29,985 nucleotides of DNA, taken from positions 1-29,985 of the IMG/VR virus record IMGVR_UViG_3300037584_002951; one strand, given 5' to 3'. This stretch comes from a virus. The position numbers and the translations under genes are program-made. The notes under the pieces were generated by a model. That model was given only the letters and a program-made list of their open reading frames with translations, had not been told where the DNA came from and made no database searches. The stretch's first letter is position 1. Every line of letters starts with the position of its first letter. Shown one piece after another: positions 10,097-28,648 of this stretch.

Positions 10097-10896
10097 CACC
10101 AGTAAAACATTTAAGTTTGTTTTATAACTATGCTTTACAAAACTATGAAGTGTTGGAATTAATAGAACCAACATATGAAGATGTGAAGAATCAGATAAAA
10201 AACTTTGATATATTATTTTGTGCACCTAATCATCAAACATTTGTTATTGATGAAGATTTAATTAAAGACTCAAACATAAAGTCTATATTGTCACCATCAA
10301 CAGGACTTAATCACATTGATGTTGATTCAGTTCCAATTGTATCGGTAAAGAATGATAAAGTTTTAAATGATGTTTGGTCAACAGCAGAACATACTTTATA
10401 TTTAATATTATCAATAGTTAGAGGAAAACACGAACTACACGATAAAACATTAGGTATTATTGGATATGGAAGACTTGGTAAAATGGTAGAACAATTATGT
10501 AAACCATTATTTAAAAATGTTATTTGTGTTGATAAAGATGATGATATAAGTTTACTTTACATAGAAAGTGATGTAGTTTCACTTCATATGGATTACAATC
10601 CAACAACAGAGTATATGATTGACAATGAGTTTCTAAGTAATTTTAAAAAGAACATTTACTTAATCAACACAGCAAGAGGTGAAGTGGTAAACGAACAAGA
10701 TATAAAACATTTACTATCAGTCGGTAGAATTAAAGGATATGCTACTGATGTATTGCAAACAGAATACAATGAACAGAAGTCAGTATTTTACGGAGTGGAT
10801 TATGTAATCACTACACCACACATAGCAGGAACATCAATAGAAGCACAAGAGAAAACATACAAACGAGTATTGGAGAAATATGAAAATAATAACTGA
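10066..10896 (+). CDS. D-isomer-specific 2-hydroxyacid dehydrogenase
   Basis: A 276-aa NAD(P)-dependent dehydrogenase. It starts at GTG 10066, supported by AGGAG seven bases upstream. The Rossmann motif is I-I-G-Y-G-R-L-G at 131-138. The substrate/catalytic Arg204 is in N-T-A-R-G-E, and the catalytic His252 in T-P-H-I-A-G. It is shorter than full SerA (no ACT regulatory domain) but keeps a complete catalytic core. It would interconvert a 2-hydroxy acid and a 2-keto acid. With the aminotransferase and the HAD phosphatase it makes an oxidise/aminate/dephosphorylate set. It overlaps its upstream neighbour by 31 bases. Confidence 0.8.
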   Translation: MDNTQRILFITPVKHLSLFYNYALQNYEVLELIEPTYEDVKNQIKNFDILFCAPNHQTFVIDEDLIKDSNIKSILSPSTGLNHIDVDSVPIVSVKNDKVLNDVWSTAEHTLYLILSIVRGKHELHDKTLGIIGYGRLGKMVEQLCKPLFKNVICVDKDDDISLLYIESDVVSLHMDYNPTTEYMIDNEFLSNFKKNIYLINTARGEVVNEQDIKHLLSVGRIKGYATDVLQTEYNEQKSVFYGVDYVITTPHIAGTSIEAQEKTYKRVLEKYENNN

Positions 10897-11692
10897 ATTA
10901 TGTCAAAATCACAATGGTGATATTAACACATTAAAAGATATGGTGGTCAAGTCTGCTGAGAGTGGAGCAGACATAGTAAAGATACAATCTATCAAAGCTA
11001 ATTCACTCACTAAACGAGATGAGTTTGAGTCATTTAGAAAGTATTCAGACGAATATAAAAGATTAGCATCATTAGAACTAAGTATGGATGATGAATTAGA
11101 ATTTATACATACAGCAAAAGCTAATAATGTTATACCAATGACAACAATATTTAGTCCCAATCACTATGAATATTATAATTCATTAGGATACGATTATCTA
11201 AAACTTAGTGGATATTCGATGAGAGCATTTGATTGGGGTAAAAAATTAGATAAATTTAATTTCAAACACTTGGTATTTTCTACATCAAGTTTACATTTAC
11301 ACGATATCAAAAAGTGTATTGAGAATTTACAAGGAGTTGATTTCACAATATTACATTGTGTTTGTTTATATCCAACACCATTTGAAAAATTAAACTTATC
11401 ATCAATAGAACATTTGAAAACACTACACGACAAAGTAGGATTCAGCGACCATTCAGATAATTTACTATCAAGTAAACAGGCAATCTTTCAAGGTATTGAT
11501 ATGTTGGAAAGACACTTTACTATATTGGATAAAGAAGAAACAAGAGATGGTAAAGTTTCGGTCACACCAAAAGAATTACAAGAGTTAAAAACATTTAGTA
11601 ATTATACAAAGGAAGGTCAGTATTTAGTATTGAATGGATTTAATGAGGAACAACAATTTAATCACGAGTATTACCAAGGAAGATTTGAATGA
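10880..11692 (+). CDS. neuB: NeuB-like nonulosonic acid synthase lacking the SAF domain
   Basis: A 270-aa TIM-barrel synthase. The signatures are E-L-C-Q-N-H-N-G-D at 6-14 and G-A-D-I-V-K-I-Q at 29-36, then H-C-V-C-L-Y-P-T-P and V-G-F-S-D-H-S, and L-E-R-H-F-T-I near the C-terminus. NeuB enzymes condense phosphoenolpyruvate with an N-acetylated hexosamine-type aldose to make sialic, legionaminic or pseudaminic acid. Typical members have about 340 residues with a C-terminal antifreeze-like (SAF) domain; this one stops after the barrel, with no sign of a frameshift. The product sugar is unknown. The cytidylyltransferase-like protein at 2885 would activate it. Confidence 0.75.
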   Translation: MKIITELCQNHNGDINTLKDMVVKSAESGADIVKIQSIKANSLTKRDEFESFRKYSDEYKRLASLELSMDDELEFIHTAKANNVIPMTTIFSPNHYEYYNSLGYDYLKLSGYSMRAFDWGKKLDKFNFKHLVFSTSSLHLHDIKKCIENLQGVDFTILHCVCLYPTPFEKLNLSSIEHLKTLHDKVGFSDHSDNLLSSKQAIFQGIDMLERHFTILDKEETRDGKVSVTPKELQELKTFSNYTKEGQYLVLNGFNEEQQFNHEYYQGRFE

Positions 11693-12420
11693 TACTACTT
11701 TGTAATGGAGATAGTTGGACACAGGGTGATTCACCTGCACAAGATATAAATTGGGAGTCGGAACCAAACTTGGACTGGTATAATATAGTACCTGATTTTG
11801 GTGAATTCTCTAATCCTTGTGATGATAGAGTTCTTTACAAGTTTTATGATAGTGATGTATGGTCAAAAGTATTAGGTAAAAAACTTGGAATAGAAACTTG
11901 GAATTGTGGTAGGTTGGGTGCAAGTAATGATAGAATCATTAGAACCACAATTAATTCTATCGAGTATTTAGAATCATTGGGTAAAACAGATATATTTGTT
12001 GTGATTGGTTTAACCAGTATAAATCGTTATAGTAATTTAACATCAAATTTCAAATATAATGAATTGAGAGAAGATAAAAAAAGTAATCTTAGTCCGGCAT
12101 TGGTTCAAAGAAATTTAGTGAATTTAATCAATATTCAGAACTATTTATCTATGAAAGGTTATGATTACTTAATATTTAATGCGTTTGATTTTTTGATGGA
12201 AAATGATTTTAAATCTTTACCATTATACCAATACATTAATTTTGACAAAATTTACAACAACGACTTGAAAGCACATTTTAAAAATTATATAGATAATAAA
12301 TTTAATACTAATTGGGATATAAAAGGAAAATACTATAAAACACAACACCCAACAGACTTTTCTCACAATGAGTGGGGTAATGAATTACATAAATACATTA
12401 AGGAGAACTATGATGTTTAA
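11689..12420 (+). CDS. SGNH hydrolase-like protein, copy 3
   Basis: A 243-aa protein. Block I is N-G-D-S-W-T-Q-G with Ser9. The Gly/Asn block is C-G-R-L-G-A-S-N-D-R near 74-84. The C-terminal block is H-P-T-D-F-S-H-N-E-W-G around 220-230, giving Asp and His. It has the same logic as the proteins at 1271 and 7026 but only local resemblance. It is the last enzyme of the glycan run; the next gene begins inside its final codons. The expected role is O-acyl transfer or removal on the glycan. Confidence 0.7.
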   Translation: MILLCNGDSWTQGDSPAQDINWESEPNLDWYNIVPDFGEFSNPCDDRVLYKFYDSDVWSKVLGKKLGIETWNCGRLGASNDRIIRTTINSIEYLESLGKTDIFVVIGLTSINRYSNLTSNFKYNELREDKKSNLSPALVQRNLVNLINIQNYLSMKGYDYLIFNAFDFLMENDFKSLPLYQYINFDKIYNNDLKAHFKNYIDNKFNTNWDIKGKYYKTQHPTDFSHNEWGNELHKYIKENYDV

Positions 12421-12572: not shown

Positions 12573-13439
12573 ATGATTAAACTAAAAAACTTACTATTTG
12601 AATCCAGTATTACAGGACAAACACAGGGTTCTGAAGAGATTGGTGGATATAAAGGTTTCTTTAAACTATCTGAAATGGAAAAGTATAAGAAATGGTTAAA
12701 GAAAACTCTTCGAATAGAATTAGTTGAGGGATTCAAAGACCCAGGTATATTTAAAGCAGTATTTTTAGCAGGTGGACCAGGTTCAGGTAAAACCTACATA
12801 GCAAAGGGTTTATTTGGAATACCAGAAAGAGTCAATGTATCTCAAAGTGGTTTAAAAATGGTTAATTCAGACAAAGAATTAAAATATTTATTAAACAAAT
12901 TTGGATTCGGTACTGACTTAGATTCATTACCAGATGAAGTATTTAAGAACCTTACAGGTGACGGACCACAATCAAGTGGATTGAGAAAGTTCGCAAAAGA
13001 TTTAACCGCAGAAAGAAGAAGATTGTATCAAAACGGAAGACTTGGTATGATTATCGACGGAACCGGAGACGATTTTAAAAAAATCTCGATGGAAAAAGCG
13101 GAATTAGAGAAGATTGGGTATCAAACATATATGATATTCGTAAACACTACATTAGAAGTAGCACTTGAACGAAATGAAAATCGTGATAGAGTATTACCAG
13201 CAAGTATTGTTAAAGCATCACACCAGGAAGTAAATAGAAATGTTGGTGCGTTTCAAGGATTATTTGGTTCAAGTAACTTTATGATTGTTGATAATAATGA
13301 GTACAAAACAGAAGCTCAAGCAAAAAAGAGATTTAAGATGTTGGTGAAACAAGGATTAGGTAAGTTTATAAAGGCACCAATCAAAAGTAAAAAAGCATTG
13401 AGTTGGATTAGAAAACAAAAAATATTAAGGGAAAAATAA
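12573..13439 (+). CDS. Zeta-toxin/polynucleotide-kinase-like P-loop protein with head-targeting leader
   Basis: A 288-aa protein. Walker A is A-G-G-P-G-S-G-K-T at 66-74 (Lys73). I-I-D-G-T-G-D at 160-166 and the arginine-containing R-N-E-N-R-D-R-V-L-P at 200-209 match the zeta-toxin/AAA_33 kinase layout; such kinases phosphorylate sugars, nucleotides or nucleic-acid ends. The N-terminus M-I-K-L-K-N-L-L-F-E|S-S resembles the short capsid-targeting leader of T4 internal proteins, which the prohead protease cuts after hxE. No antitoxin partner is adjacent, so a toxin-antitoxin role is unlikely. AAGGA precedes the start. It is the first gene after the candidate late promoters. Confidence 0.7.
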   Translation: MIKLKNLLFESSITGQTQGSEEIGGYKGFFKLSEMEKYKKWLKKTLRIELVEGFKDPGIFKAVFLAGGPGSGKTYIAKGLFGIPERVNVSQSGLKMVNSDKELKYLLNKFGFGTDLDSLPDEVFKNLTGDGPQSSGLRKFAKDLTAERRRLYQNGRLGMIIDGTGDDFKKISMEKAELEKIGYQTYMIFVNTTLEVALERNENRDRVLPASIVKASHQEVNRNVGAFQGLFGSSNFMIVDNNEYKTEAQAKKRFKMLVKQGLGKFIKAPIKSKKALSWIRKQKILREK

Positions 13440-13931: not shown

Positions 13932-14225
13932 ATGTCATTTTCAGATGTAACACGAGGACAAGCTAGTTTTGTTAGTAGAACAAAGAAAAACCCAAGACCA
14001 AGTTCATTTCACAAAACACACGAAGTAGCAGCGTCAACAACATACGAACCAACAGGTTCATTTAAAAATACTGCATTTTTAGTTGAAACAGGAACTAACT
14101 ACGCACTTACACCAGCAGATGGTGGTGATAACTTGACTGCAGGTTTAGTAACAGGACAAGTTTACAACATCGCTTTGAAAAAAGTTGTTAATGGTTCAAG
14201 TACAGTAGTTCAATTATTAAAATAA
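13932..14225 (+). CDS. Small unknown protein, possible virion component
   Basis: A 97-aa protein with AGGAGA upstream. It is rich in Thr, Ser, Gly and Val in the second half, a beta-type composition (T-G-Q-V-Y-N-I-A-L-K-K-V-V). No signal peptide, cysteine or known motif is seen. The position between the endolysin and the multi-module protein at 14225, and the composition, suggest a minor structural or decoration protein, but this is weak. It overlaps the next gene by one base (TAATG). Confidence 0.55.
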   Translation: MSFSDVTRGQASFVSRTKKNPRPSSFHKTHEVAASTTYEPTGSFKNTAFLVETGTNYALTPADGGDNLTAGLVTGQVYNIALKKVVNGSSTVVQLLK

Positions 14226-15589
14226 TGGACAATGTAGCACAAATAATAAGAGAAACAATCACAGAATTGATTGACGATAGTCGTTGTATTCATTGTGGTT
14301 CAATCACCAATGAAAACTTAAGACAATGGTTTAAGAAAGGTGGAGCCGGAGGAACAACCAAAGGTGGTTGGGACAGATATGGTTCAGAGGGACAGAAACT
14401 CGGTAAGTGTGGTGGTGGAAAAGAAGGTGGTGCATATGCCGCTTGTTTAAGTGCAGAAAAAGCAAAGAAACTCGGTCCAAAAGGTAGAGCGTCATTTGTT
14501 CGTAGAAAGAGAGCAGCACAGAAAAAGGGTGGTGATGCTAAAAAAGGTGGACAAAGAACTAAAAGTAAAAAACCTACCTATGTAAAAACCAAAGCAGAAA
14601 ACACTATGAACGAAAGAAGAAATCTAAAACAATTACTAACTAAAATAAAAGGCGGTAAGATGAATAAGGATATCGCTAAAGACTTGGACAACTTGATAAT
14701 GAAAGACGATGGTTTTGTAGTGATTACAAAATCAAAAAAAGATGGATACAATCGTTTTCACGCTAATAGAGTAGATGATAGAGGTGTTGAGGTTGTTCCA
14801 CATAGTAGAGATTTTAAACCAGGTAAAGTTAGAGGTATGATGAGACACAAACCAGAACATTTGTTAGGAGATGTTAATTGGAAAGATGTTAAAGATATTT
14901 ATATGGAGAATAAAATGAACTTGAAATTAGAAGAATTAGTAGGTAAACCAATTACAGAAGCTCAATTCGATGAAGCCGCCGGAAAGAAAGACGCTTGTTA
15001 TCGTAAAGTGAAAGCCCGATATGATGTATGGCCTTCTGCTTATGCAAGTGGTGCTTTAGTAAAGTGTCGTAAAGTAGGTGCAGCTAACTGGGGAAATAAA
15101 TCTAAAAAAGAAAATGTAAATGAAATTAAGGTTTGGAGTTTAGACGAAAAATGTTGGAAAGGATATGAGAAAAAAGGAACAAAAAAAATGTTCGGTAAAG
15201 TCTATCCTAATTGTGTAAAAAAAGAAGGTGTTCAGACTAATGTTTGGTTAGGTGAGAACGAACTTTATTATGAATCCAACACAGGAGAGTCAGGAGGATA
15301 TTCATTTAATTTTAAAAAAGAAGATGTCAACGAAGCAGAGTATCAAGGAAGAAAAGTAAAACTTGGTAAAATTATGCAAGGTGATACTAAAAAGTTCAAA
15401 GTATATGTTAAAAATCCAAAAGGAAATGTAGTAAAGGTGAACTTTGGTCAAGGTGGTGACGCTAAAGGTGGAACAATGAGAATTAGAAAATCAAACCCAA
15501 AAGCAAGAGCTAACTTTAGAGCAAGACACAATTGTGATAATCCAGGTCCAAGACACAAAGCAAGATATTGGTCTTGTCGTAAATGGTAG
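14225..15589 (+). CDS. Multi-module basic polyprotein, candidate capsid cargo (454 aa)
   Basis: Built from short modules: an N-terminal helix with I-T-E14 and C-I-H-C at 21-24; a Gly/Lys-rich module at 33-101 (resembling DUF5872, from memory); a module after M-N-E130; a leader-like helix at 231-245 ending P-I-T-E|A; a Cys module at 252-290; another at 307-333; and a basic module at 371-454 ending Y-W-S-C-R-K-W. Junctions often carry hxE or NE sites: ITE245|A, FDE250|A, VNE300|I, VNE370|A. T4 gp21 cuts at (I/L)xE, so processing by the protease at 26271 into basic DNA-associated peptides is inferred. Each Cys module has two or more cysteines spaced for small metal or disulfide folds. No enzyme motif is visible. 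Confidence 0.7.
   Translation: MDNVAQIIRETITELIDDSRCIHCGSITNENLRQWFKKGGAGGTTKGGWDRYGSEGQKLGKCGGGKEGGAYAACLSAEKAKKLGPKGRASFVRRKRAAQKKGGDAKKGGQRTKSKKPTYVKTKAENTMNERRNLKQLLTKIKGGKMNKDIAKDLDNLIMKDDGFVVITKSKKDGYNRFHANRVDDRGVEVVPHSRDFKPGKVRGMMRHKPEHLLGDVNWKDVKDIYMENKMNLKLEELVGKPITEAQFDEAAGKKDACYRKVKARYDVWPSAYASGALVKCRKVGAANWGNKSKKENVNEIKVWSLDEKCWKGYEKKGTKKMFGKVYPNCVKKEGVQTNVWLGENELYYESNTGESGGYSFNFKKEDVNEAEYQGRKVKLGKIMQGDTKKFKVYVKNPKGNVVKVNFGQGGDAKGGTMRIRKSNPKARANFRARHNCDNPGPRHKARYWSCRKW
14905..14917 (+). promoter_or_regulatory. Internal ribosome binding site and in-frame ATG
   Basis: GGAGA at 14905-14909 sits five bases before an in-frame ATG (14915, residue 231 of the 454-aa protein). The residues after it, M-N-L-K-L-E-E-L-V-G-K-P-I-T-E|A, look like the leaders at true gene starts nearby. 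It may give a 224-aa shorter product, or mark an old gene start at a fusion point. Confidence 0.4.
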
Positions 15590-15596
15590 GAGAGTT

Positions 15597-18500
15597 ATGT
15601 CAAATAAACTAACAGAATGGTTAGTTAAACCTTTTATCAATGAAGTAGATTTACCAATTAAAGTTGGTGATGATGTATTGATGGGTAGGTTTAAAAACAA
15701 ACGAGTAAAAGTCAAGTCCATTGACTACAATGAGAAGGGTGATTTACTAATTAATGGTCGTCCTGCATTAAAATTTAGATTAGTCAAGGGTGACAAAAAG
15801 TTATTACCGAGTAAAACTACAAAGAAATCATCAGCAGAACCAGACTCAGATAGAAAAGGTGTTGATGATGAATATCCACATCATAAAACAGAATCTAAAT
15901 TACAAGAAGCAGAACCAAAGTTTCAATCAGTCCACACAAGGTCATCATTTAATCAAACATTTGGTGGTTGGTATTCAAATTATGTTCCACTATCCACTAA
16001 ATTTATGCAAAAGATGATAGGTAATACACGAGTAAGTGTATTTCACGTCGGTTCAGCAGAAATGAAAAGAGATATACAACAGGTTGGAAGAATCATTGGT
16101 AAGAAAGGTTCCTTATCTACATTTACCGCAGTTGACAAAGGTGAGAAACTTGCAAAAGGACAAGGGATACAATCCAAAGGTGGTGTTATTTATCAAATAG
16201 AGGGAACTTTATTAGTTGCAAGCACAAGAGATATACAATCCACACCAGATAAAACAGGTCGTAGATGGGTTCCACCAACTAGCTTAGCAGGTAAAGTTGC
16301 TGGTGGTAAAATGTATGATGAATTAAAAAAAGGTATTAAAGCAAATAAACTGGATAGAGACACTTGGAATAGTATAGAAAGAAAAGAAGAAGCAAAGTGG
16401 GAAAAAGAAGTTGATTATTACAGTGATAATTATAAGGGAAGTTATGAAGAAAAAGAAGAAGCATTGAAAAAAATAATGGGCCCATTGAAAAGAAAATGGA
16501 TTAAAAAATATATTGATATGTGTTATAAAATAATGAAAAAATATCAACCACAAATCAAAAGACATATATTAAGTCAAAAAGATAAAGGTTCAGAATACGG
16601 GTGGAACGAAATAGTTGTGAATCAAATTCATATTCAAGATGTATTTTTATTAAAAAGAGTGGGTCAATATAGTAGTATACGAGATGAAGTAGAAAAAATT
16701 GCAAAAGGTACAGTTACCGTAGGTTCACCAGCACAATTTAGAAAGTGGTATAACCAACGAGGTGGTATTATTAATGAAGCAAAAAGAATTCCAAGAAAAA
16801 AAGGACAACATAGAGGTTCTAAATCACATTCAGATTTATACACAGACGAAAATCCAAAAGGAACAATCAAAGGTTTAAAGTTTGCAACCGTCAAGGACGC
16901 AAAGGCATCAGTAAGTAAAATCAGAGGTAGTGGTAAAACACACGCTCACAAAATTCAAGCAGCAGTTGCTATGGAACAACGAGCAAGAGAAATGGGTAAA
17001 ACATCTGAGGCAGCAGTCTATCGTGCTTACATCAACCAAATGAAAAAGAAAACTAAAAAGAAAAATGAATCTGATGAATATACATTTGGACCAGATTATA
17101 TACCAACAAACTTAGCACAAAGAAAAAAGATGAAAAGAATTCATCAAAAAACAAATAGAAGTAGTAGAGTTAGTGGTAGAAAAAACGAAGGTTGGTCAGA
17201 TAAATATAAAAAAAGTATTGATTGTAATAATCCAAAAGGTTTTTCACAAAAAGCACATTGTGACGGAAAGAAGAAAAACGAAAGTTTCTTTGGATTAGGA
17301 CCAGGAGATGTTCCTTCACCAAGTCGTAAAATGGTTAAGAAAATGAAAAAGAAGGGGAACACATCAGTTCCTTATGGTAGTGGATATAAAAAAGTAAACG
17401 AACAAAAAGAAATTAAAAAAGTAATAGCTATTTATCCAGGTAGATTTCAACCATTTGGTCCACATCACAAAAAAGTATATGATGCGTTAAAAAGTAAGTT
17501 CGGTGAAGCATACATCACAACATCAGATATACAACAACCACCAAGACACCCAATGAACTTTAATGAAAAAGTTAAACATATGGTTAAAATGGGAATACCA
17601 AAGAATCGTATCGTAAAAGAAAAAGTTCCTTATGTGGCAAACAACTTATTGAAGAAATTTAATAAAGACACCACAGCAGTAGTTTATGTGTTTGGAGCAA
17701 AGGACGCCGGTAGATTAAAAGGTGGTAAAAAGAAATCAGGTGGATTAACTTACTATCAAGATTTAAAGTCAAATCTAAATAATTTGAAAGGATTTGAAGA
17801 ACACGGATATATTTATGAAGCACCATTTGTAAAAGTTAGTGGTATCTCAAGTGGAACAGAGATTAGAAAATTATTAGGTAGTCCAAAGTTTGATGATAAA
17901 AAAAGACAACAAATATTCAAAAAAACATTTGGATACTTTGATAAGTCCACATATGAAATGATGACTTCCAGATTTAAAAAGTTGTTTGAATTTTTCCAAC
18001 AACCACAAGTAAAAAAACTAATGAAAGAAGTTAGTGGTTTTGGAACAAGTATAAATGCAAGTGATATGTCAGATGAGGGTATGTATGATTTTTTTGGTTC
18101 CTTAGATGATTATTACAGAATATCACCAGAACACGCAGAACATATTGGTTATGAATTGATTGATTTTCCAGTAAGAGATTCTGAGGATATGATGTTTACC
18201 ATTATGGCAGATGAATATGAAAAGGACAGAACCAAAACCGTAACACACGGAAGAACAATTAATCAAAACAGAAAAAATAAAGAATCAGTTGATAACCCAT
18301 TTCCAAAGTATAAAGAACGAATGAGAAAAACATTAGGTGGTCTTGGATTTGAAATAATTAAATACTTTGGTGAAGAGTCATTTACTAAGATGAAAGAATC
18401 ACCACTACTGGCCAAAAAAGATATTGATAAGGGTGTTAGTCATATTAAGAAAGTTCAAGAAGGGTTTATGGAAGATGTTAAATTATTAATAGAAGGTGGA

Positions 18501-19718
18501 GCATACGGACATATGAATCATCCATTTGATGATAATAATTTGATGTTTTCAGATTTGAAGAACATAATTATTATAGGGTTAGAAGGAAAGCTTAATCGTG
18601 AAGATAATGTTTCTGAAAAACTTGATGGACAAAACCTAATGATAAGTTGGGTAGATGGAAAGTTAAAAGCAGCCCGAAACAAAGGTCATCTGAAAAATGG
18701 TGGTAAAACTGCACCAACAACTTCCGGTATAGCAAGTATGTTTGCTGGTAGAGGTAATATTAAAAAGGCATTTGTAGGTGCGATGAGAGATTTAGAAAAA
18801 TCAATAGGTTCTTTATCAGACGCTCAGAAGAAAAAGATTTTTGGTAATGGAACTAAATGGATGAATTTAGAGGTTATATATCCACAAACGAGTAATATAA
18901 TAGACTATGATGTCGCAGAGATTGTATTCCACGGAACTACCGAATATGATATGTCCGGTAGAGCAAAAGGATACTCAAAAGATGCGGCTCGTATGTTACA
19001 AGGTATGATAAAACAAGTAAATCAAAATATACAAAAAACATTCAAGATTAGTAAACCTAACTTTTTGAAAATGAGCAAAGTTCAAGACTTTAGTAAGAAG
19101 AAATCTACATTTTTAAATAAGTTAAATAAACTACAAAGTCAATATGGATTAAAAGATAGTGACAAATTAGGTATGTATCATCAATCTTATTGGCAAGAAT
19201 ATATTTTCAACGCAGCAAAACAATTCAAAGTTAAGTTGAAGAGTAATCAATTAGTAAACTTAACGAATCGTTGGGCATTCTTTGATAAATCATATAGTAT
19301 CGGACAAATTAAAAAAGACTTTAAAGACAATCCACAATTTATTGATTGGATATTAAAGACTGATAAACTTGACCATAACAAAATGTTTAAACAAAATATC
19401 AAACCATTTGAGATATTATTTTTCCAAGTAGGTGCAGAGATATTGAAAAATATGTCAGGTTTCTTAGCGGTATCACCAGACACAGCAGTTCAAAAAATTA
19501 AAAAAGATGTGGACACCGCACTAAAAGATTTACAAAAACCAGATAAAGTAGAAAAATTAAGAAAATTAAAAATACAAATAGAAAAATTAGAAGCTATCGG
19601 TGGTTCGAGTGCAATAGTTCCGAGTGAGGGATTAGTATTTAAATACAAAGGTAATATATACAAATTTACAGGAGCATTTGCACCAATCAATCAAATACTT
19701 GGTAGTTTAAAATTTTAA
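15597..19718 (+). CDS. Giant multi-domain polyprotein: leader, NMNAT-like and ligase-like domains (1373 aa)
   Basis: The start is ATG 15597 with AGGAGA upstream; the open frame reaches back to 15534 but only inside the previous gene. Layout: leader 1-16 ending F-I-N-E|V; small beta module 17-70; unknown domain 105-394; module 395-490 (R-I-P-R-K-K-G-Q, DUF5824-like from memory); Cys module 532-560; nucleotidylyltransferase 603-798 with G-R-F-Q-P-F-G-P-H-H at 615-624 and G-I-S-S-G-T-E-I-R-K at 749-758; linker 799-966; covalent nucleotidyltransferase 967-1373 with E-K-L-D-G at 1007-1011 (Lys1008), W-M-N-L-E-V at 1088-1093, and E-G-L-V-F-K plus Y-K-F-T-G at 1344-1359. The last set fits RNA/DNA ligase or capping enzymes. 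Candidate cuts: LQE104|A, INE394|A, KNE491|S, KNE562|S, VNE602|Q, LIE966|G. It is probably packaged in the head and cleaved by gp21. Confidence 0.75.
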   Translation: MSNKLTEWLVKPFINEVDLPIKVGDDVLMGRFKNKRVKVKSIDYNEKGDLLINGRPALKFRLVKGDKKLLPSKTTKKSSAEPDSDRKGVDDEYPHHKTESKLQEAEPKFQSVHTRSSFNQTFGGWYSNYVPLSTKFMQKMIGNTRVSVFHVGSAEMKRDIQQVGRIIGKKGSLSTFTAVDKGEKLAKGQGIQSKGGVIYQIEGTLLVASTRDIQSTPDKTGRRWVPPTSLAGKVAGGKMYDELKKGIKANKLDRDTWNSIERKEEAKWEKEVDYYSDNYKGSYEEKEEALKKIMGPLKRKWIKKYIDMCYKIMKKYQPQIKRHILSQKDKGSEYGWNEIVVNQIHIQDVFLLKRVGQYSSIRDEVEKIAKGTVTVGSPAQFRKWYNQRGGIINEAKRIPRKKGQHRGSKSHSDLYTDENPKGTIKGLKFATVKDAKASVSKIRGSGKTHAHKIQAAVAMEQRAREMGKTSEAAVYRAYINQMKKKTKKKNESDEYTFGPDYIPTNLAQRKKMKRIHQKTNRSSRVSGRKNEGWSDKYKKSIDCNNPKGFSQKAHCDGKKKNESFFGLGPGDVPSPSRKMVKKMKKKGNTSVPYGSGYKKVNEQKEIKKVIAIYPGRFQPFGPHHKKVYDALKSKFGEAYITTSDIQQPPRHPMNFNEKVKHMVKMGIPKNRIVKEKVPYVANNLLKKFNKDTTAVVYVFGAKDAGRLKGGKKKSGGLTYYQDLKSNLNNLKGFEEHGYIYEAPFVKVSGISSGTEIRKLLGSPKFDDKKRQQIFKKTFGYFDKSTYEMMTSRFKKLFEFFQQPQVKKLMKEVSGFGTSINASDMSDEGMYDFFGSLDDYYRISPEHAEHIGYELIDFPVRDSEDMMFTIMADEYEKDRTKTVTHGRTINQNRKNKESVDNPFPKYKERMRKTLGGLGFEIIKYFGEESFTKMKESPLLAKKDIDKGVSHIKKVQEGFMEDVKLLIEGGAYGHMNHPFDDNNLMFSDLKNIIIIGLEGKLNREDNVSEKLDGQNLMISWVDGKLKAARNKGHLKNGGKTAPTTSGIASMFAGRGNIKKAFVGAMRDLEKSIGSLSDAQKKKIFGNGTKWMNLEVIYPQTSNIIDYDVAEIVFHGTTEYDMSGRAKGYSKDAARMLQGMIKQVNQNIQKTFKISKPNFLKMSKVQDFSKKKSTFLNKLNKLQSQYGLKDSDKLGMYHQSYWQEYIFNAAKQFKVKLKSNQLVNLTNRWAFFDKSYSIGQIKKDFKDNPQFIDWILKTDKLDHNKMFKQNIKPFEILFFQVGAEILKNMSGFLAVSPDTAVQKIKKDVDTALKDLQKPDKVEKLRKLKIQIEKLEAIGGSSAIVPSEGLVFKYKGNIYKFTGAFAPINQILGSLKF

Positions 19719-20595: not shown

Positions 20596-20982
20596 ATGAG
20601 ATATTTAATTTACATATTACTAATCGGGAGTTTATTCGGTCAAGATGTGATTGAACCCAAAACCTACACCTTTACAGAGGAAGAAGTTTTAGGATTTACC
20701 AATACGATTAAAGAACTTGAACTAAAAGATAGTTTAAATGTTTCTTTAGTTGAGGATTTAGAATCACAATTGAAACTTTTTGAAGAAACATCAGTCATAG
20801 ACTCTATGTTGATTGCGAATAAAACGAACCAAATTAATCTACTAAAAGACACCACAAAACTACTTGAACAAAAAGTAAAACTCGTTCAACCTAAATGGTA
20901 TGAAAACAAATGGTTATACTTTACATTTGGGGTAGCTTTGACTGCTACTTCAGTTAAATTAGCAGGTCAAATAGTAGACTAA
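20596..20982 (+). CDS. Exported coiled-coil protein with C-terminal membrane anchor, spanin-like candidate
   Basis: A 128-aa protein. It begins M-R-Y-L-I-Y-I-L-L-I-G-S-L-F-G-Q-D, a signal peptide with likely cleavage after G or Q. There is no cysteine, so it is not a lipoprotein. The middle 75 residues are helical and charged. The end W-L-Y-F-T-F-G-V-A-L-T-A-T-S is a probable transmembrane segment. This topology, periplasmic coil with a C-terminal anchor, resembles unimolecular spanins except for the missing lipid anchor. No ribosome binding site is visible upstream; the 5' region is TATA-rich. It ends in a TAATG overlap with the terminase. Confidence 0.55.
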   Translation: MRYLIYILLIGSLFGQDVIEPKTYTFTEEEVLGFTNTIKELELKDSLNVSLVEDLESQLKLFEETSVIDSMLIANKTNQINLLKDTTKLLEQKVKLVQPKWYENKWLYFTFGVALTATSVKLAGQIVD

Positions 20983-22553
20983 TGGCAGAACCAATAAAAG
21001 AAGTAATCAAACAAGAATATGTAAAGTGTGCAAAAGATTCAGCATACTTTATGAAAAAGTATTGTATGATACAACACCCGATACGAGGAAAAATTCCTTT
21101 TGATTTGTACGATTTTCAAGAAAAAACCGTAACAGAGTTTCAAGAAAATCGTATGAACATCATACTAAAAGCTCGTCAGTTAGGTATATCTACATTGACA
21201 GCAGGATACGCTTTATGGATGATGACTTTTCATCAGGATAAAAATGTTCTGGTAATTGCAACGAAACAAGAAGTAGCAAAAAACTTGGTTACGAAAGTTC
21301 GTGTTATGCACTCAAACTTACCGAGTTGGTTGAAACAAAGGTGTGTCGAGGATAACAAATTGAATTTGAGATATCGTAATGGTTCTCAAATTAAAGCAGT
21401 ATCTTCTTCTGGTGAAGGTGCTCGTTCTGAAGCACTATCATTATTGATATTGGATGAGGCGGCATTTATTGATAAGATTGACACAATATGGACAGCGGCA
21501 CAATCCACATTGACTACTGGTGGTAGTTGTATCGCATTATCAACACCAAATGGTGTGGGTAATTGGTTTCATAAAAATTGGGTAGAAGCAGAAGAGGGAC
21601 GAGGACTATTTAATCCAATCAAACTACATTGGACTACACACCCAGATAGAGATGAAGAGTGGAGAAAAGAACAAGATACTTTACTTGGACCAAGTTCAGC
21701 AGCACAAGAGTGTGATTGTGACTTCTTAACATCTGGTACAGGTGTGATTGACCCAGTATTACTGGAGAACTTAAGAAAGAACTCGTGTAATGACCCAATG
21801 GAAAAAAGAGGTATTGACAATAATTGTTGGATTTGGGAACCAGCAAATTACTCAAAGAGTTACATTGTATGTGCCGATGTTGGTCGAGGAGATTCAGCAG
21901 ACTATTCTGCTTTTCACGTGATTGATGTTGAAAATTTAGAACAAGTAGCAGAATACAAAGGTAGAATAAATACCAAAGATTTTGGAAATATGTTGGTAAG
22001 TATAGCGACAGAATATAATGATGCGATACTTATAGTAGAGAACAATAATATTGGTTGGGCAACAATCCAACAAATTATAGATAGGGATTATCCTAATCTA
22101 TTTTATACAAGTAAAGACTTACAATATGTTGATGTTCAACACCAATTGAACAATAAAATCAACAGACAAGAAAGGAATATGGTTGCTGGTTTTTCAACGA
22201 CTTCTAAGACCAGACCACTAATTATTAGTAAGTTAGAAGAATTTTTTAGAGAAGAAAGTGTAGTGGTTCGTAGTAATCGTTTGATTGATGAACTATTGAC
22301 TTTCGTCTATATAAATAATAGAGCAGAAGCGATGACCGGATACAATGATGATTTGGTTATGTCTTTTGCTATTGGACTTTGGGTTCGTGATACTGCATTA
22401 AGATTACGAACTGAAGGGATTGAATTAACAAAAAAGACTCTCAGTAGAATGAACGATACCGAGGGTTTATACACTCCAGAAGACGCAAATAAAAATGATA
22501 GTTGGGAGTGGGATACAGGAAAAGAAAAAGAGTCTTTAGATTGGCTCTTATAA
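20982..22553 (+). CDS. terL: Large terminase subunit (T4 gp17-like)
   Basis: A 523-aa packaging motor ATPase and nuclease. The N-terminal ATPase has K-A-R-Q-L-G-I-S-T at 63-71 (the deviant Walker A of the T4 family, normally SRQLGKT-like), Walker B L-L-I-L-D-E at 154-159, and the coupling motif L-S-T-P-N-G at 186-191. The C-terminal RNase H-type nuclease has Asp299 (C-A-D-V-G-R-G), Glu353 (I-V-E-N-N-N) and Asp456/457 (Y-N-D-D-L-V). Length and order match gp17. It docks on the portal encoded next. The Walker A segment has I-S-T where most relatives have G-K-T or M-S-T. Confidence 0.95.
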   Translation: MAEPIKEVIKQEYVKCAKDSAYFMKKYCMIQHPIRGKIPFDLYDFQEKTVTEFQENRMNIILKARQLGISTLTAGYALWMMTFHQDKNVLVIATKQEVAKNLVTKVRVMHSNLPSWLKQRCVEDNKLNLRYRNGSQIKAVSSSGEGARSEALSLLILDEAAFIDKIDTIWTAAQSTLTTGGSCIALSTPNGVGNWFHKNWVEAEEGRGLFNPIKLHWTTHPDRDEEWRKEQDTLLGPSSAAQECDCDFLTSGTGVIDPVLLENLRKNSCNDPMEKRGIDNNCWIWEPANYSKSYIVCADVGRGDSADYSAFHVIDVENLEQVAEYKGRINTKDFGNMLVSIATEYNDAILIVENNNIGWATIQQIIDRDYPNLFYTSKDLQYVDVQHQLNNKINRQERNMVAGFSTTSKTRPLIISKLEEFFREESVVVRSNRLIDELLTFVYINNRAEAMTGYNDDLVMSFAIGLWVRDTALRLRTEGIELTKKTLSRMNDTEGLYTPEDANKNDSWEWDTGKEKESLDWLL

Positions 22554-22566
22554 AGTGAGGTAAAAA

Positions 22567-24447
22567 ATGGCAGATACAACATTATTTGGTAGATTACAGA
22601 GATTATTCTCAACAAATGTAATTGTAAGAAATGTCGGTGGTAAGAAATTAAAGATTGCTGATACAGACCAAGTACAAAAACAAGTCAAGAGTCATCTTGT
22701 TGATAGGTATACAAAACTACACAACAACTTGGACTTAGTAGGAACAGGTTATTCTACGGTTCATCAGATTATGGCAGCAAGATTGGCATTGTTTAAAGAT
22801 TATGAATCAATGGATTCTGACCCAATCATTTCATCAGCATTGGACATCTATTCAGATGAGTCTACAATGAAAGGTGAGTATGGTGAAGTCGTTTCAATTA
22901 AATCTGACAACGAAAATATCAAAGAAATTCTACATAATTTATTTTATGACATTATGAACATTGAGTTTAATCTATGGCCTTGGGTTCGTAATATGGTTAA
23001 GTATGGTGATTTCTTTTTACACTTAGACATTAGTGAAAAGTATGGTATTACAAATGTAGTTCCATTATCACCTTATGAAATAATTAGAGCAGAGGGAGAA
23101 GACCCAGAAAATCCTTATTATACAAAATTCTACTTGGAAAGTATTGAAGGAGCACATCCATACTTCGGTCAAAAGAATAGTGGTAAAGGAAAAATAGAAT
23201 TTGAAAACTTCCAAATCGCACACTTCAGGTTAGCAAACGATAGTAACTTCTTACCTTACGGAAAATCTATGGTTGAGTCTACAAGAAAGATTTGGAAACA
23301 ATTAACACTTATGGAAGACGCAATGTTAATTCACAGAATTATGAGAGCACCTTCCAAACGAGTATTCAAGATTGATATCGGTAATATACCACCAGCAGAA
23401 GTTGACAATTATATGCAAAGAATCATCAACAAGATGAAGAAAACACCAATCATAGATGAACAAACAGGTGAGTATAATTTAAAATACAATATGCAAAACC
23501 TAACAGAAGACTTCTTTATGCCAGTTCGTGGTGGAGATAGTGGAACTGAAATATCAGAGTTGGGTGGTATTGATTATGATTCAACCGAAGACATTGAATA
23601 TTTGAAAAACAAATTATTAGCATCACTAAGAGTACCAAAAGCATTCTTAGGATTTGATGAAAATGTCGGTGGTAAAGCGACACTTGCGGCAGAAGATGTA
23701 AGATTTGCCAGAACCATTGAAAGAATACAAAGAATTGTAGTATCAGAGTTAACAAAGATTGCAGTTGTTCACTTATATTCACAAGGATATACAGACGAAG
23801 ACTTAGTAAACTTTGAATTAAACTTAGCAAGTCCTTCAACAATGTATGAACAAGAGAAGATTGAATTGTTCGGACAAAAAGTTTCATTAGCTCGTGATAT
23901 GATACAAGATAAAATTTTACCTTATGAATGGGTATATGATAATATTTTTAATTTCTCAGATGAACAAAAAGTTGATATTGAAAATCAAATCATTGAAGAC
24001 CAGAAACAAAAATTCAGACACTCACAAATTGAGATGGAAGGTAATGACCCACAAGCATCCGGAGAATCAGTTGGAACACCAAGTGATATGCAAACCGGCC
24101 GTGGTGGATTATTCGGACAACAACAAGAACCACAACAGGATGACGATTCAGTAGCAGGTTCTATATTTGACCCGTTCCAAACTCAAGATGGAGAAGACGA
24201 CAGACCAGAAGACCAACAAGGTGGTCGTCCACAAGAGATGAATAAACCATTCAAAGATAGTGGAGCAAGAGGCCGTGACCCATTAGGGAAACAAACCAAG
24301 AATAGAAGACCACTTGCATTAGCACACTACGACGCCTTGAAGAAAACTATGGGTAAAAAGTCAAAGGACATAATAAATGAGACCAACAAGGTAGATGAAA
24401 TTGAACAAGAATATAATGAATATAAGGAAGAAAACGGGGTAGATTAA
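22567..24447 (+). CDS. 20: Portal vertex protein (T4 gp20-like)
   Basis: A 626-aa protein. S-A-L-D-I-Y-S-D-E-S-T, P-W-V-R-N-M-V-K-Y-G-D and S-L-R-V-P-K-A-F-L-G-F are conserved landmarks of T4-type portals, and it follows the terminase as expected. It forms the dodecameric DNA channel at one vertex. After about residue 495 comes a low-complexity tail rich in Gln, Asp and Gly, then a helical end with I-I-N-E605|T, a possible prohead protease site. The ribosome binding site is GAGG. Confidence 0.93.
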   Translation: MADTTLFGRLQRLFSTNVIVRNVGGKKLKIADTDQVQKQVKSHLVDRYTKLHNNLDLVGTGYSTVHQIMAARLALFKDYESMDSDPIISSALDIYSDESTMKGEYGEVVSIKSDNENIKEILHNLFYDIMNIEFNLWPWVRNMVKYGDFFLHLDISEKYGITNVVPLSPYEIIRAEGEDPENPYYTKFYLESIEGAHPYFGQKNSGKGKIEFENFQIAHFRLANDSNFLPYGKSMVESTRKIWKQLTLMEDAMLIHRIMRAPSKRVFKIDIGNIPPAEVDNYMQRIINKMKKTPIIDEQTGEYNLKYNMQNLTEDFFMPVRGGDSGTEISELGGIDYDSTEDIEYLKNKLLASLRVPKAFLGFDENVGGKATLAAEDVRFARTIERIQRIVVSELTKIAVVHLYSQGYTDEDLVNFELNLASPSTMYEQEKIELFGQKVSLARDMIQDKILPYEWVYDNIFNFSDEQKVDIENQIIEDQKQKFRHSQIEMEGNDPQASGESVGTPSDMQTGRGGLFGQQQEPQQDDDSVAGSIFDPFQTQDGEDDRPEDQQGGRPQEMNKPFKDSGARGRDPLGKQTKNRRPLALAHYDALKKTMGKKSKDIINETNKVDEIEQEYNEYKEENGVD

Positions 24448-25385: not shown

Positions 25386-26274
25386 GTTAAAAGAACTTAT
25401 CAAACATTTAGTTGTTCAAGAACTAAATAAAGATAAAGAGGTCGATGAAGTCTCTACAACAGCTTCAGCAGGTGCAGCAAATCCTATGGGAACTGGTATT
25501 TACTATGATACTCCTTACGCATTCAGAACTAAAAAGAAAAAAGATAAAGAAAAAATGAAAAAGATTACTCGTGCAGGTGGATACAAACCAGTAAACGAAT
25601 CACAACCATTTGCAGACTTCCCACAATTCCCAAAACTATCAAGAGCACAACAAGAATCTCTTGATGAGTTATTTGGATTTGCAGAATCATATCAGATATT
25701 TAATTCATTCAATAGTAATCCTAAAAAGTTTATCCAAACATTAGACGATATGGCAAAGATTAGAAAAGCATCTAACAAACAACCAAAAGGTGTTAATTTT
25801 AACAAAGGTAAAAAAGAATTCGTTAAAGAAATCACTAATCAAGAAATTAGTGCATTACAAAGTCTTGAAAAAGGTTTAAAGAAACTTCAACAAGATTATA
25901 TCAAGATTACTAAAGTAGGTGATAATACACTCAAAAACAGACAATACAATGATTATTATGAATATATTATAGGAGCTAAAGAAGGAATAGGAAAACTTAT
26001 ACAAACTTTAAAAAGAAAACAAATGTTAGGTGAAGGTCGTTATCACGATTGGAGAAACGACGAATCCCTAACACCAAAACAAAAAATTGGTAAGTCAATG
26101 AGAGAAATTAGAGACGCATTAAATGAATTAGACAAAACCGTAAAGATGAATCTCAAATTAAAAACAGAATTAAAAATGAAGTCAGAAGACTATTGGAAAA
26201 ATACACATAAAGCGTTGACCAAGATTTCAGAAAGATTAGTCAAGATGGCAAACAAAGTAGGAAATTTAAGATGA
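25360..26274 (+). CDS. Head-associated protein with leader-like N-terminus, 304 aa
   Basis: AAGGA lies before ATG 25360. The N-terminal helix K-L-K-E-L-I-K-H-L-V-V-Q-E-L is like other leaders here, followed by V-D-E30|V-S-T-T-A-S-A-G-A-A. A second candidate cut is P-V-N-E80|S. In between is a Gly/Ala-rich patch and a Lys-rich patch. Residues 95-304 are helical with many Lys and Glu, resembling scaffold or internal core proteins. It is encoded directly before the prohead protease (ATGA overlap), the usual place for its substrates. Function is inferred. Confidence 0.6.
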   Translation: MSKHDKVTKLKELIKHLVVQELNKDKEVDEVSTTASAGAANPMGTGIYYDTPYAFRTKKKKDKEKMKKITRAGGYKPVNESQPFADFPQFPKLSRAQQESLDELFGFAESYQIFNSFNSNPKKFIQTLDDMAKIRKASNKQPKGVNFNKGKKEFVKEITNQEISALQSLEKGLKKLQQDYIKITKVGDNTLKNRQYNDYYEYIIGAKEGIGKLIQTLKRKQMLGEGRYHDWRNDESLTPKQKIGKSMREIRDALNELDKTVKMNLKLKTELKMKSEDYWKNTHKALTKISERLVKMANKVGNLR

Positions 26275-26888
26275 AACAAGTTATTGTAGACTATATACCA
26301 TTTAGTTTAACACCAAAACAGATTAATGAATCGATGAAAGAAAACAACGGAAAGTTAGTTGTTAAAGGTGTATTACAAAGAGCAGAAGCAAAAAACCAAA
26401 ACGGACGAGTATATCCAAGAGAGATATTGGTTCGTGAGTCAAAAAAGTATGATAAAAATTTTGTAAAACAGAATAGAGCACTTGGTGAATTAGACCACCC
26501 AGATAGTTCAGTTGTTAATTTAGCAAATGTATCACACAATATTACTGAAATGCACTTTGAGGGTGACAATTTATTAGGTACAGTAGAAATTTTAACAACA
26601 CCAAGTGGTAATATATTGAAAGAATTATTTAAAAATGGTATCAAATTAGGTATCAGTTCACGAGGATTAGGTAGTGTTGAAGTTGTTAGAGAATCCAATG
26701 GAGACCAAGTATCAAAAGTAGGAGATGACTTTGAGTTAATCGCATTTGATTTTGTTTCTAATCCATCAACACACGGAGCATTCTTGTATCCGATGAACGA
26801 ATCAGTAGACAATACACAGACAGGTAGAACTTGTGGTGATTATTGTAGAGCAGAAGATATTATTAATCACATTATAAGGGGTGAGTAA
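26271..26888 (+). CDS. 21: Prohead core protease (T4 gp21-like)
   Basis: A 205-aa serine protease of the T4-type procapsid family. Landmarks: N-G-R-V-Y-P-R at 44-50, catalytic His76 in G-E-L-D-H-P, and the catalytic Ser at 129/130 in G-I-S-S-R-G. The His-Ser distance of about 54 matches the family. It has its own candidate cut sites near both ends, I-N-E20|S and M-N-E187|S, fitting the self-processing known for such proteases. Its expected substrates are the NE-marked proteins encoded on both sides. Its place after portal is the T4 order. Confidence 0.93.
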   Translation: MKQVIVDYIPFSLTPKQINESMKENNGKLVVKGVLQRAEAKNQNGRVYPREILVRESKKYDKNFVKQNRALGELDHPDSSVVNLANVSHNITEMHFEGDNLLGTVEILTTPSGNILKELFKNGIKLGISSRGLGSVEVVRESNGDQVSKVGDDFELIAFDFVSNPSTHGAFLYPMNESVDNTQTGRTCGDYCRAEDIINHIIRGE

Positions 26889-27095: not shown

Positions 27096-28391
27096 ATGAA
27101 AAAACTATCACAATTATTAGAAAGTATTAATGAGATAGATTCTTTATTAGAATTAGACTTTAAAGATAAAAAAGCATTTCAAAAGTATCAGTCAATTCAT
27201 AAAATGAAACCTACGACTAAAGTAAACATCGCAGGTAAAGATACTACCGTAGGTGATGAAATGGGTGATGATAGTGAAACACCAGAAGCACCTAAGAAAA
27301 CAACCGGAGCAGACATTGAAAAACAAGCAGACAAGTCCGGTAAAGAAACAGATGATATTGAAAAAGATATCGCAGGAGACTTAATGGGTGATGAACCTGA
27401 ATCAGAAAAAGCTGATGCCATAGATTCTGCACTAAAAAGAATCAGTAATGAAGTAGATATAGAAGATTTCGAAGGTAGTCCAAATAATTTTGACGCATTA
27501 ATGGATATCGCTTCTGATTTAGAAGATTCACCTATCGGAGATGACGAAGAATTTGGTGATTTGTATGATGATTTAATGGGTAATCAAGATACAGAATCTG
27601 CAGAAAATTTTAAAAAATATTTGGATGACCAATTAAAAGGTGATAAACCTAAATCAGAACCTAAATCACTTTTCTCACAAGTTTCTGATGAAAATAAAGA
27701 TGAATTTATGGATGTTGTTTCTGACATAGATTCTAATTCAGGATTAGATACGATTAATGTAGATAAATCTAAGGGGGGTAGTGGAACATATTATAATAAT
27801 ATCACTCTTCCAGCATTAAAGAAAAAGTTTCCTGGTGGTGGTGATGAGTTTTATGAAGGTATAGACCAAGGTATTGATAGTGCAATAGATTCACTTGGAT
27901 ATATTGAAGATAAAAAACTTAAGAAAAAATTAGAAGATGAACTCTTTACTCTTAGTAATGATATGATGGCAGAACTCGGTGACGATTATGAAGCTGCAGT
28001 TGATGGAGATGGTAAACTACCTTATAAAAAAATGTTACCTTATTTAGAGAAATTAGACAAATTTAAGAAAGAACATTTTTCTGATGAGTCAAAATCTAAA
28101 GATGAACCTACTACTAAATTTCAAGGGAGAACTATTCCAAAAGCTCCAAAATATGATACTAAAAAGAAAACAGGAAGTAAAAAACCAAGTTCATTGGATA
28201 GTTACTACGCTAAGGAAGACGCAAAGAAAAAATGGCTTTCAAGTAATCCAGGCAAAACATCATATGATTGGAGTCGTCTACCATACGGAACAATGTCAGA
28301 TTTAATTGATAAAGAAATGAAAGCTAGAGGGTTTAAAGAAAATACTAATTTAAAAGAATTATCCAAAATTACAACGAGGTATAACAAATGA
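27096..28391 (+). CDS. Acidic head-core-like protein with cleavable leader, 431 aa
   Basis: The start M-K-K-L-S-Q-L-L-E9|S-I-N-E13|I gives two overlapping candidate protease sites in a short helix, like the T4 internal-protein leader. Residues 27-53 form a basic module ending in T-K-V-N-I-A-G-K-D-T-T-V-G-D. Residues 55-215 are very acidic (many Asp/Glu, few aromatics). The last 100 residues are Lys-rich with a W-L-S-S-N-P-G-K-T-S-Y-D-W-S-R-L-P motif. In T4 the next gene after 21 is the acidic scaffold gene 22, so this may play the scaffold role, but sequence similarity is not evident by eye. Confidence 0.55.
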   Translation: MKKLSQLLESINEIDSLLELDFKDKKAFQKYQSIHKMKPTTKVNIAGKDTTVGDEMGDDSETPEAPKKTTGADIEKQADKSGKETDDIEKDIAGDLMGDEPESEKADAIDSALKRISNEVDIEDFEGSPNNFDALMDIASDLEDSPIGDDEEFGDLYDDLMGNQDTESAENFKKYLDDQLKGDKPKSEPKSLFSQVSDENKDEFMDVVSDIDSNSGLDTINVDKSKGGSGTYYNNITLPALKKKFPGGGDEFYEGIDQGIDSAIDSLGYIEDKKLKKKLEDELFTLSNDMMAELGDDYEAAVDGDGKLPYKKMLPYLEKLDKFKKEHFSDESKSKDEPTTKFQGRTIPKAPKYDTKKKTGSKKPSSLDSYYAKEDAKKKWLSSNPGKTSYDWSRLPYGTMSDLIDKEMKARGFKENTNLKELSKITTRYNK

Positions 28392-28648
28392 TTAAATTAA
28401 AAGAAGTGTTGAAAAAACAAATAAATGAAGCACCAGAACAACACGAAGTCTATGAAGCTCTTCAAAAGATAGTTGCCGGATTAGATGACGCGGAGTATGG
28501 TATTAATGATTTAGGTAGAATAAACTTTGAAAGTAGAGATAAGTCACAAGCAAAGAAAATTGTAAAAGATTTTAAATCATTACTAAAGTTAACTAACAAA
28601 TTTTACTCAGATGTTGATAGAGGTAAAATAAAAACATCAGAATTTTAA
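28388..28648 (+). CDS. Small head protein with cleavable leader, 86 aa
   Basis: The N-terminus M-I-K-L-K-E-V-L-K-K-Q-I-N-E14|A closely resembles the leader of the kinase-like protein at 12573 (M-I-K-L-K-N-L-L-F-E|S). The rest is a compact helical, charged domain (about 70 residues). Cleavage after Glu14 would release a mature 72-residue protein. It is a candidate internal head protein. ATGA overlap with the preceding gene. Confidence 0.6.
   Translation: MIKLKEVLKKQINEAPEQHEVYEALQKIVAGLDDAEYGINDLGRINFESRDKSQAKKIVKDFKSLLKLTNKFYSDVDRGKIKTSEF

Follow-up and report, generated by a model that had tools for sequence, protein, structure and literature searches.

The 29,985 bases analysed here (the window) make up the virus record IMGVR_UViG_3300037584_002951, from a marine phage related to T4, and in them Pfam recognises a T4-type terminase, a T4-type portal and a gp21-like prohead protease. 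At 15597..19718 it contains an open reading frame (ORF) of 1,373 residues, starting with ATG at 15597, which probably encodes a head-packaged cargo polyprotein whose RNA ligase, together with a kinase encoded nearby, would reseal RNA on injection. The ORF begins with an N-terminal leader, MSNKLTEWLVKPFINE (15597..15644), a candidate capsid-targeting sequence, followed by an LPIKVGD module (residues 17-75; 15645..15821), an ART-like module of uncertain identity (residues 105-394; 15909..16778), a PRKKG module (residues 395-491; 16779..17069) and a GWSDKYK mini-module (residues 532-562; 17190..17282). The codon of Glu602 (17400..17402) closes a candidate cut, VNE|Q, ahead of a NadM-like nucleotidyltransferase of the HIGH superfamily (residues 603-800; 17403..17996), and that of Glu955 (18459..18461) closes another, VQE|G, ahead of a C-terminal RNA-ligase-like domain (residues 963-1373; 18483..19715), whose catalytic codons are those of Lys1008 (18618-18620), Glu1092 (18870-18872) and Glu1344 (19626-19628). 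The kinase, a protein of 288 residues, is encoded at 12573..13439, and the gp21-like protease, the presumed processing enzyme, at 26271..26888 (Peptidase_S77, 1.9e-27). These features, like the terminase, portal and leader-bearing ORFs described below, are on the plus strand.

The first-pass annotation had read ligase and nucleotidyltransferase motifs in this ORF, and they do stand at the residues it gave in the translation from ATG 15597; the feature it delimited starts at 17403, immediately behind the candidate cut VNE602|Q. The motifs are not chance occurrences, because both domain folds could be matched and the motifs are kept in homologues. In the ligase-like domain, EKLDG lies at 1007 (with Lys1008), EGLVFK at 1344 (with Glu1344) and YKFTG at 1355; motif I (KxDG; K1008, D1010, G1011), the Glu of motif III, the EG of motif IV and the Lys of motif V are all present. 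Lys1008, Asp1010, Gly1011, Arg1027, Glu1092, Glu1344, Gly1345 and Lys1356 are invariant in 105/105 sequences (194 matches minus those in L119-L122, plus the window, thinned to <95% identity); thus neither Lys1008 nor Glu1344, the two residues singled out by the first-pass annotation, is lost in any homologue of this set. The same catalytic positions are invariant in 10/10 members of a diverse set including L119, L120 and L201, with identity down to 31%. Lys1349 of motif IV (EGxVxK) is present in the window and kept in 89% of the 105 sequences, with Val or Asn in some relatives.

A two-domain AlphaFold model was poor (predicted local distance difference test score, pLDDT, 64.8; predicted template modelling score, pTM, 0.36), and the fold-search rows shown for it were all nucleotidyltransferases, with none for the ligase. 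Folded alone from 47 sequences, the ligase reached pLDDT 86.5 and pTM 0.83. A Foldseek search of the PDB with the ligase model returned only nucleic-acid ligases at ranks 1-32, an archaeal RNA ligase first and T4 Rnl2 and Rnl1 among them, which agrees with the proposed assignment. VIA-align gave Z 9.6 for Naegleria RNA ligase (188 residues, 4.0 A), 8.4 for T4 Rnl1, 8.2 for fungal tRNA ligase and 7.8 for T4 Rnl2, values to be read with the caution that top Z scores of 7-8, and for helical models of 14, can arise without clear relatives. Archaeal RNA ligases (Z 6.5-6.8) scored like the top DNA ligase (6.8) and were followed by capping enzymes; the first chain from outside the superfamily appeared at rank 45 (Z 5.4). 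A fold search of viral models yielded 18 matches at E up to 0.001. Unannotated or 'Cytidyltransferase-like' members of the family came closest, with models named RNA ligase following from rank 14 (1.1e-4); an S-PM2 'Cytidyltransferase-like' protein, A0A0M6VVW4, was also found (1.5e-4). In the model a mostly helical stretch (model residues 167-377) separates motifs III and IV, and since only a helix follows motif V, a C-terminal OB domain appears to be absent. No single RNA ligase family stands out in the structure searches (Rnl1, Rnl2, archaeal and Naegleria-type are all represented), and the L120 ligase used as a single query found no relative. Modelling nevertheless gives good support to residues 963-1373 being a nucleic-acid ligase with RNA ligases leading its matches.

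The nucleotidyltransferase carries GRFQPFGPHH from residue 615 and GISSGTEIR from residue 749. Searched alone, the domain matches Pfam CTP_transf_like (1.3e-4), and a profile of 32 homologues finds archaeal NadM 4yp5 in the PDB (2.6e-4) with both the GRFQP and the SGTxxR boxes aligned. The profile reached 13 PDB sequences at E up to 1, and the name or entry of every one identifies it as a nicotinamide mononucleotide (NMN) or nicotinic acid mononucleotide (NaMN) adenylyltransferase; 1f9a is counted among them by its entry title (NMN adenylyltransferase), its sequence name being hypothetical protein MJ0541. The corresponding part of the two-domain model (block pLDDT 58-89) also matches NadM best (2r5w, Z 11.9, 3.2 A, 162 residues). 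Of the NMNAT-like enzyme proposed earlier, the NadM-like fold and the SGTxxR motif hold; in the latter S155, G156, T157 and R160 (domain numbering) are invariant in 32/32 and align to NadM. The usual HxGH/TxGH box is altered: the window reads GPHH, with the first His gone, and among 76 distinct homologues 61 have GPHH, 3 another GxHH and 12 HxGH or TxGH. The ordinary box is found in the distant loci L120, L121, L203 and L205 and, as HSGH, in eight nearer members. Because of this altered box we call the window domain NadM-like only, and its nucleotidyltransferase activity is less sure than its fold. Nor does the fold alone name the substrate, since the phosphopantetheine adenylyltransferase 3pxu (Z 11.0) scores less than one Z unit below NadM. 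A role in restoring nicotinamide adenine dinucleotide (NAD+) is possible, yet weaker than one in RNA repair, because the box is altered and the fold fits phosphopantetheine adenylyltransferases nearly as closely as it fits NadM.

The kinase, reported earlier as a zeta/PNK-like (polynucleotide kinase-like) enzyme with a leader four genes upstream, is indeed found there: its P-loop ORF at 12573-13439 matches Zeta_toxin (8e-9) and AAA_33 (1.9e-5) in Pfam. Its leader, MIKLKNLLFE, occupies 12573-12602, and a second candidate site, IELVE52|G, ends at 12728. Against the PDB, the kinase family profile finds 4mde (8.7e-4; database name Metallophosphoesterase), which we take to be the kinase domain of bacterial Pnkp, and L-seryl-tRNA(Sec) kinase 3adb (0.0051). 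The P-loop, R146 and R148 are invariant in 21/21 sequences. In 23 of 165 distinct relatives the kinase is fused into the same ORF as the other modules, and it stands apart from them in another 19 ORFs of the loci.

The leader and the module junctions follow a common pattern. According to excerpts of PMC9026906, gp21 of T4 cleaves after L/I-x-E, and T4 capsid-targeting propeptides have 10-19 residues; the window leader ends in INE16 and fits this rule. A leader of the KL(T/S)xWL type was counted by hand in 31/44 distinct N-termini and stands directly before four different modules: LPIKVGD, PRKKG (L131, L142, L080), the kinase (L173, L198) and the nucleotidyltransferase (L185, L135). In L048 the ART-like module has a leader of a second type, MIKLKDLLKE, in front of it, and stand-alone kinases start in a similar way; uncultured phage LR756500 encodes the ligase on its own, in a gene starting MKFLKSYEEFLNE. 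By pattern, 43/57 complete ORFs have a leader plus site, which is a strict L/I-x-E in 39 of the 43. In a test independent of the leader pattern, counting from a Met within the first 30 residues, L/I-x-E fell at residues 10-17 in 45/57 complete polyproteins versus 78/386 other ORFs of at least 200 residues.

Cut sites between the modules had likewise been proposed. At the PRKKG junction, 48 sequences reduce to 14 upstream contexts (<45% identity), in which Glu is the sole fully invariant upstream position (14/14). At the kinase junction, 34 sequences reduce to 14 contexts, all with the Glu, a following Gly and, two positions ahead of the Glu, one of Ile, Leu, Val or Met; a broader count of 17/17 includes same-contig or identical short repeats, and we rely on the 14 instead. 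Even 14 is an upper figure for independence, because some contexts (L053/L063, L080/L131) look related when shifted. Glu also precedes the GWSDKYK mini-module in all five distinct contexts listed. The proposal stands for the site ahead of the nucleotidyltransferase, where 19/22 contexts (truncated repeats account for two of the 22) have the gp21-type pattern L/I/V/M-x-E 3-9 residues upstream, versus 2.1 for random windows taken from these ORFs; the site before the ligase proved irregular, with 12/41 versus 3.4 in a narrow window and 26/38 contexts versus 6.6 when L/I/V/M/F-x-E was allowed within 15 residues upstream. As a sequence pattern, leader and junctions together are well supported. Packaging and cleavage are likely, and we infer them because one leader type precedes four modules, the junction Glu is invariant and a gp21-like protease is encoded in the window.

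In a pattern scan of IMG/VR, 360/370 stretches encoded a relative, and the best 80 of these were kept. Modules were counted by BLAST, with one query per module, over 165 distinct ORFs with nucleotidyltransferase and/or ligase, many of them incomplete. LPIKVGD was found in 42 of these, PRKKG in 40 and the ART-like module in 13; extra modules comprise a CCA-adding enzyme (6), Nudix (2) and HD (1). The ART-like label was given by eye, and a PDB search with this module gave no credible match; outside the polyproteins, 6 ORFs of the loci have it too, in some cases behind a MIKLKDLLTE-type leader. The GWSDKYK mini-module recurs in other ORFs of L012, L014, L017 and L032. Nucleotidyltransferase and ligase occur together in 52/57 complete distinct ORFs (from loci found with ligase or whole-protein queries), and the pairing extends to the distant L119, L120, L203 and L205. 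The surrounding modules, including those upstream of residue 603, are shuffled among relatives. The most elaborate arrangement is a 2,463-residue ORF of L202 (896-8287) comprising kinase, CCA-adding enzyme, HD, nucleotidyltransferase and ligase (Pfam: CCA-adding head PF01743 5.5e-31, its RNA-binding part 7.6e-9, HD 3.9e-8), the only ORF in which kinase, ligase, CCA-adding and HD modules all meet; by eye it also has a hydrophobic, membrane-like segment. Other polyproteins contain zinc-protease-like, Nudix and exonuclease domains (L135:1450-5058, L187:892-3981, L174:6159-9230), and in L203:4339-7242, on a contig of a Pelagibacteraceae metagenome-assembled genome, the order is swapped, with the ligase before a nucleotidyltransferase that has a canonical HAGH box. 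A Pol-beta-like label for L163/L175 was given by eye, and Pfam returned nothing for it.

In cyanophage P-HM1 (L209), the cytidyltransferase T4-GC190 directly follows DUF6267 (T4-GC71), and the GC190 family matches the window nucleotidyltransferase family with an hhalign probability of 89.6. By eye, DUF6267 contains KWDG, VFHT, EGYV and KLVxR motifs with a long gap before EGYV, as in the window ligase; profile comparison of DUF6267 with the ligase gave no support (hhalign probability 0.4-7.5%), and their kinship is a lead from sequence motifs. In Pelagiphage HTVC008M (L207), DUF6267, an LPIKVGD-module gene, a kinase and a nucleotidyltransferase are four neighbouring genes, and its DUF6267 has tblastn matches in 469 phage records; in 174 of these the match spans 80% or more of its length. 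According to an excerpt of Sullivan et al. 2010 (PMC3037559), T4-GC190 was detected in purified S-SM1 virions but had gone undetected in those of S-PM2. Flavobacterium phage immuto has a gene annotated as NMN adenylyltransferase upstream of its terminase; none of the 19 immuto genes tested matched our two profiles.

In the window, the polyprotein gene is followed by genes for the T4-type large terminase (20982..22553; Terminase_6N, 5.4e-12) and the portal gp20 (22567..24447; Portal_T4, 3e-79). Among the phage records searched, the terminases closest to that of the window are from Microcystis phage Mel-JY01 (54%) and immuto-group Flavobacterium phages (53%). Two ORFs 3' of the protease gene start with leader-like peptides ending I-N-E: one at 27096..28391, starting MKKLSQLLESINE, a possible cargo or scaffold protein whose residues 18-62 match part of the L204 polyprotein, and a small one at 28388..28648, starting MIKLKEVLKKQINE. 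Because of these starts, more cargo is possible. Directly before the polyprotein, 14225-15589 encodes a 454-residue Lys-rich protein (phrog_727) with several N-E sites and Cys-containing short segments. Further left, the gene run at 438-12420 seems, judged by eye from N-termini, to encode SGNH-type, sugar-nucleotide and radical-SAM-type enzymes, odd neighbours for head genes. NadV was absent among the 18 window ORFs scanned with Pfam, which run rightwards from the ORF at 11689.

We suggest that these features probably belong to a packaged cargo system. The leader would recruit the polyprotein to the prohead core, like T4 capsid-targeting sequences, and the gp21-like protease would cut after Glu at (L/I/V)-x-E, releasing modules within the head, to be injected into the cell together with the DNA. 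There, before phage gene expression, the C-terminal module, as an RNA ligase, and the kinase, as a 5'-end polynucleotide kinase, would mend tRNA (or other RNA) severed by nucleases of the host's defence, and the NadM-like module would most likely supply nucleotidyl transfer in the same setting, for example in remaking NAD+. Packaging, cleavage, injection and substrates are all inferred here. Several observations weigh against this proposal, beside the altered HxGH box, the near-tie with 3pxu, the failure to detect T4-GC190 in S-PM2 virions and the caution on VIA-align scores given above. The best Foldseek E-value of the ligase against PDB entries is a modest 4.8e-3, sequence searches of the PDB with the ligase found no credible match, and Pfam RNA_ligase reaches motif I below its cut-off (0.022-0.048) in 4/11 ligase-bearing homologues scanned (P0004, L175, L161, L188). 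By the same pattern that recognised the leaders, 14/57 complete N-termini have no leader plus site; the 78 other ORFs with an early L/I-x-E include kinases with MIKLKxLL starts but terminases too, so the motif alone is not specific. Only 7/14 PRKKG junctions conform to L/I/V/M-x-E, and the pre-ligase cut varies more than the cuts ahead of the kinase, nucleotidyltransferase and PRKKG modules. Mel-JY01 has the nucleotidyltransferase and the ligase 18 residues apart within one 639-residue protein; given this gap and the irregular cut, the two may stay joined. Finally, CCA-adding and HD modules are not part of the window ORF.

It is conceivable, though unlikely, that the enzymes are real but unpackaged, forming a late fusion protein that acts in the infected cell, with the Glu-ended junctions as ordinary linkers. 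The position of the ORF beside head genes would then tell the timing of its synthesis and not its destination; the virion evidence is limited to a cyanophage relative, and T4-GC190 went undetected in S-PM2 virions, going by an excerpt of PMC3037559. However, ordinary linkers sit poorly with a Glu that is invariant across unlike upstream contexts, with one leader type heading four modules and with a gp21-like protease nearby, and the cyanophage relative was detected in virions of S-SM1 (same excerpt of PMC3037559). If the modules are packaged, they could still be structural or enzymatically dead internal head proteins that retain old folds. The HxGH box is altered in 64/76 distinct homologues and several small modules have no enzyme match, as such proteins might; the 105/105 invariance of the ligase catalytic residues and the 21/21 invariance of the kinase P-loop make this improbable.

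What the enzymes would act on is a separate matter. A kinase plus a ligase suits DNA end repair too, and DNA ligases share the fold with Z values reaching 6.8, as high as those of archaeal RNA ligases (6.5-6.8); the packaged pair might then repair nicks or ends in the phage DNA that is injected. We consider this rather unlikely, since RNA ligases are the top matches of both structure searches, the model has only a helix and no OB domain after motif V, and some relatives carry a CCA-adding module. The co-occurrence of both domains in 52/57 complete ORFs, distant loci included, might also mean that the nucleotidyltransferase serves the ligase, making NAD+ from NMN for an NAD+-using ligase or supplying another cofactor; yet ATP-using RNA ligases are among the structural matches, inspection by eye recognised no NMN-binding Ia domain and the altered HxGH box leaves NMNAT activity uncertain, which makes this highly improbable. 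RNA (tRNA) repair at injection is our best, still hypothetical, explanation of the sequence data, because it covers the kinase, ligase, CCA-adding and HD modules together. The protective kit of kinase, ligase and adenylyltransferase put forward by the first-pass annotation thus gains from the kinase-ligase link (same ORF in 23/165) and from the CCA-adding (6/165) and HD (1/165) modules of relatives, while the NAD+ part of it is weakened.

T4 makes Pnkp and Rnl1 after infection. The window system may be seen as a variant of T4-type head-cargo delivery that carries enzyme kinds of this sort: as in T4 tRNA repair, a kinase is combined with an RNA ligase, but the window enzymes would arrive in the particle, and CCA-adding and HD modules occur in a few relatives. 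The T4 internal head proteins (IPI-III, Alt) share a short leader ended by L/I-x-E and a gp21-type protease, and these T4 proteins are injected with the DNA (excerpts of PMC9026906); T4 packages separate proteins with one leader each, whereas the window ORF has one leader, several modules and repeated candidate cut sites. Polyvalent proteins of phages and conjugative elements are also multi-domain, thought to be injected and used in host conflicts, but are described as being released by embedded peptidase domains, whereas the window cuts fit the phage's own prohead protease; their authors state, in an excerpt of the paper, that they never saw their 2H domains associated with RNA ligases (PMC5512222). 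The phage NAD+ salvage enzymes NadM, NadR and NadV, as outlined in parts of PMC9503650 and PMC7824862, share with the window an adenylyltransferase of the HIGH superfamily, NadM being nearest by sequence; the window domain differs in its altered HxGH and in having no joined Nudix domain. Cyanophage T4-GC71 and T4-GC190 form an adjacent pair of ligase-like and HIGH-superfamily proteins resembling the window pair, although they are separate genes at a different genome position and the ligase likeness of DUF6267 rests on motifs seen by eye. Going by titles and abstract openings among the literature matches listed, we saw no packaged RNA-repair polyprotein.

A broader reading can be offered tentatively: marine T4-like phages may carry in the head a mix-and-match RNA-repair kit that acts on host tRNA from the start of infection, with the cyanophage T4-GC71/T4-GC190 pair as a split form. 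Its parts, put forward with the same reserve, might be the kinase, a new-branch RNA ligase with a helical insertion, the NadM-like enzyme and, optionally, CCA-adding, HD, Nudix and ART-like modules; perhaps the kit is encoded in one piece, as a cleavable polyprotein, or split over several genes, of which some have leaders. In T4, tRNA cut by host defence is mended by enzymes whose synthesis follows infection and depends on functioning translation. If our proposal is true, a kit delivered with the DNA would escape this circularity. The clear junction rule of this modular polyprotein further raises the prospect of finding virion cargo from sequence alone. The proposal would offer a function for a common marine phage family, a relative being encoded in at least 579 stretches in one IMG/VR scan (579/600 among the matches listed), and possibly for DUF6267.

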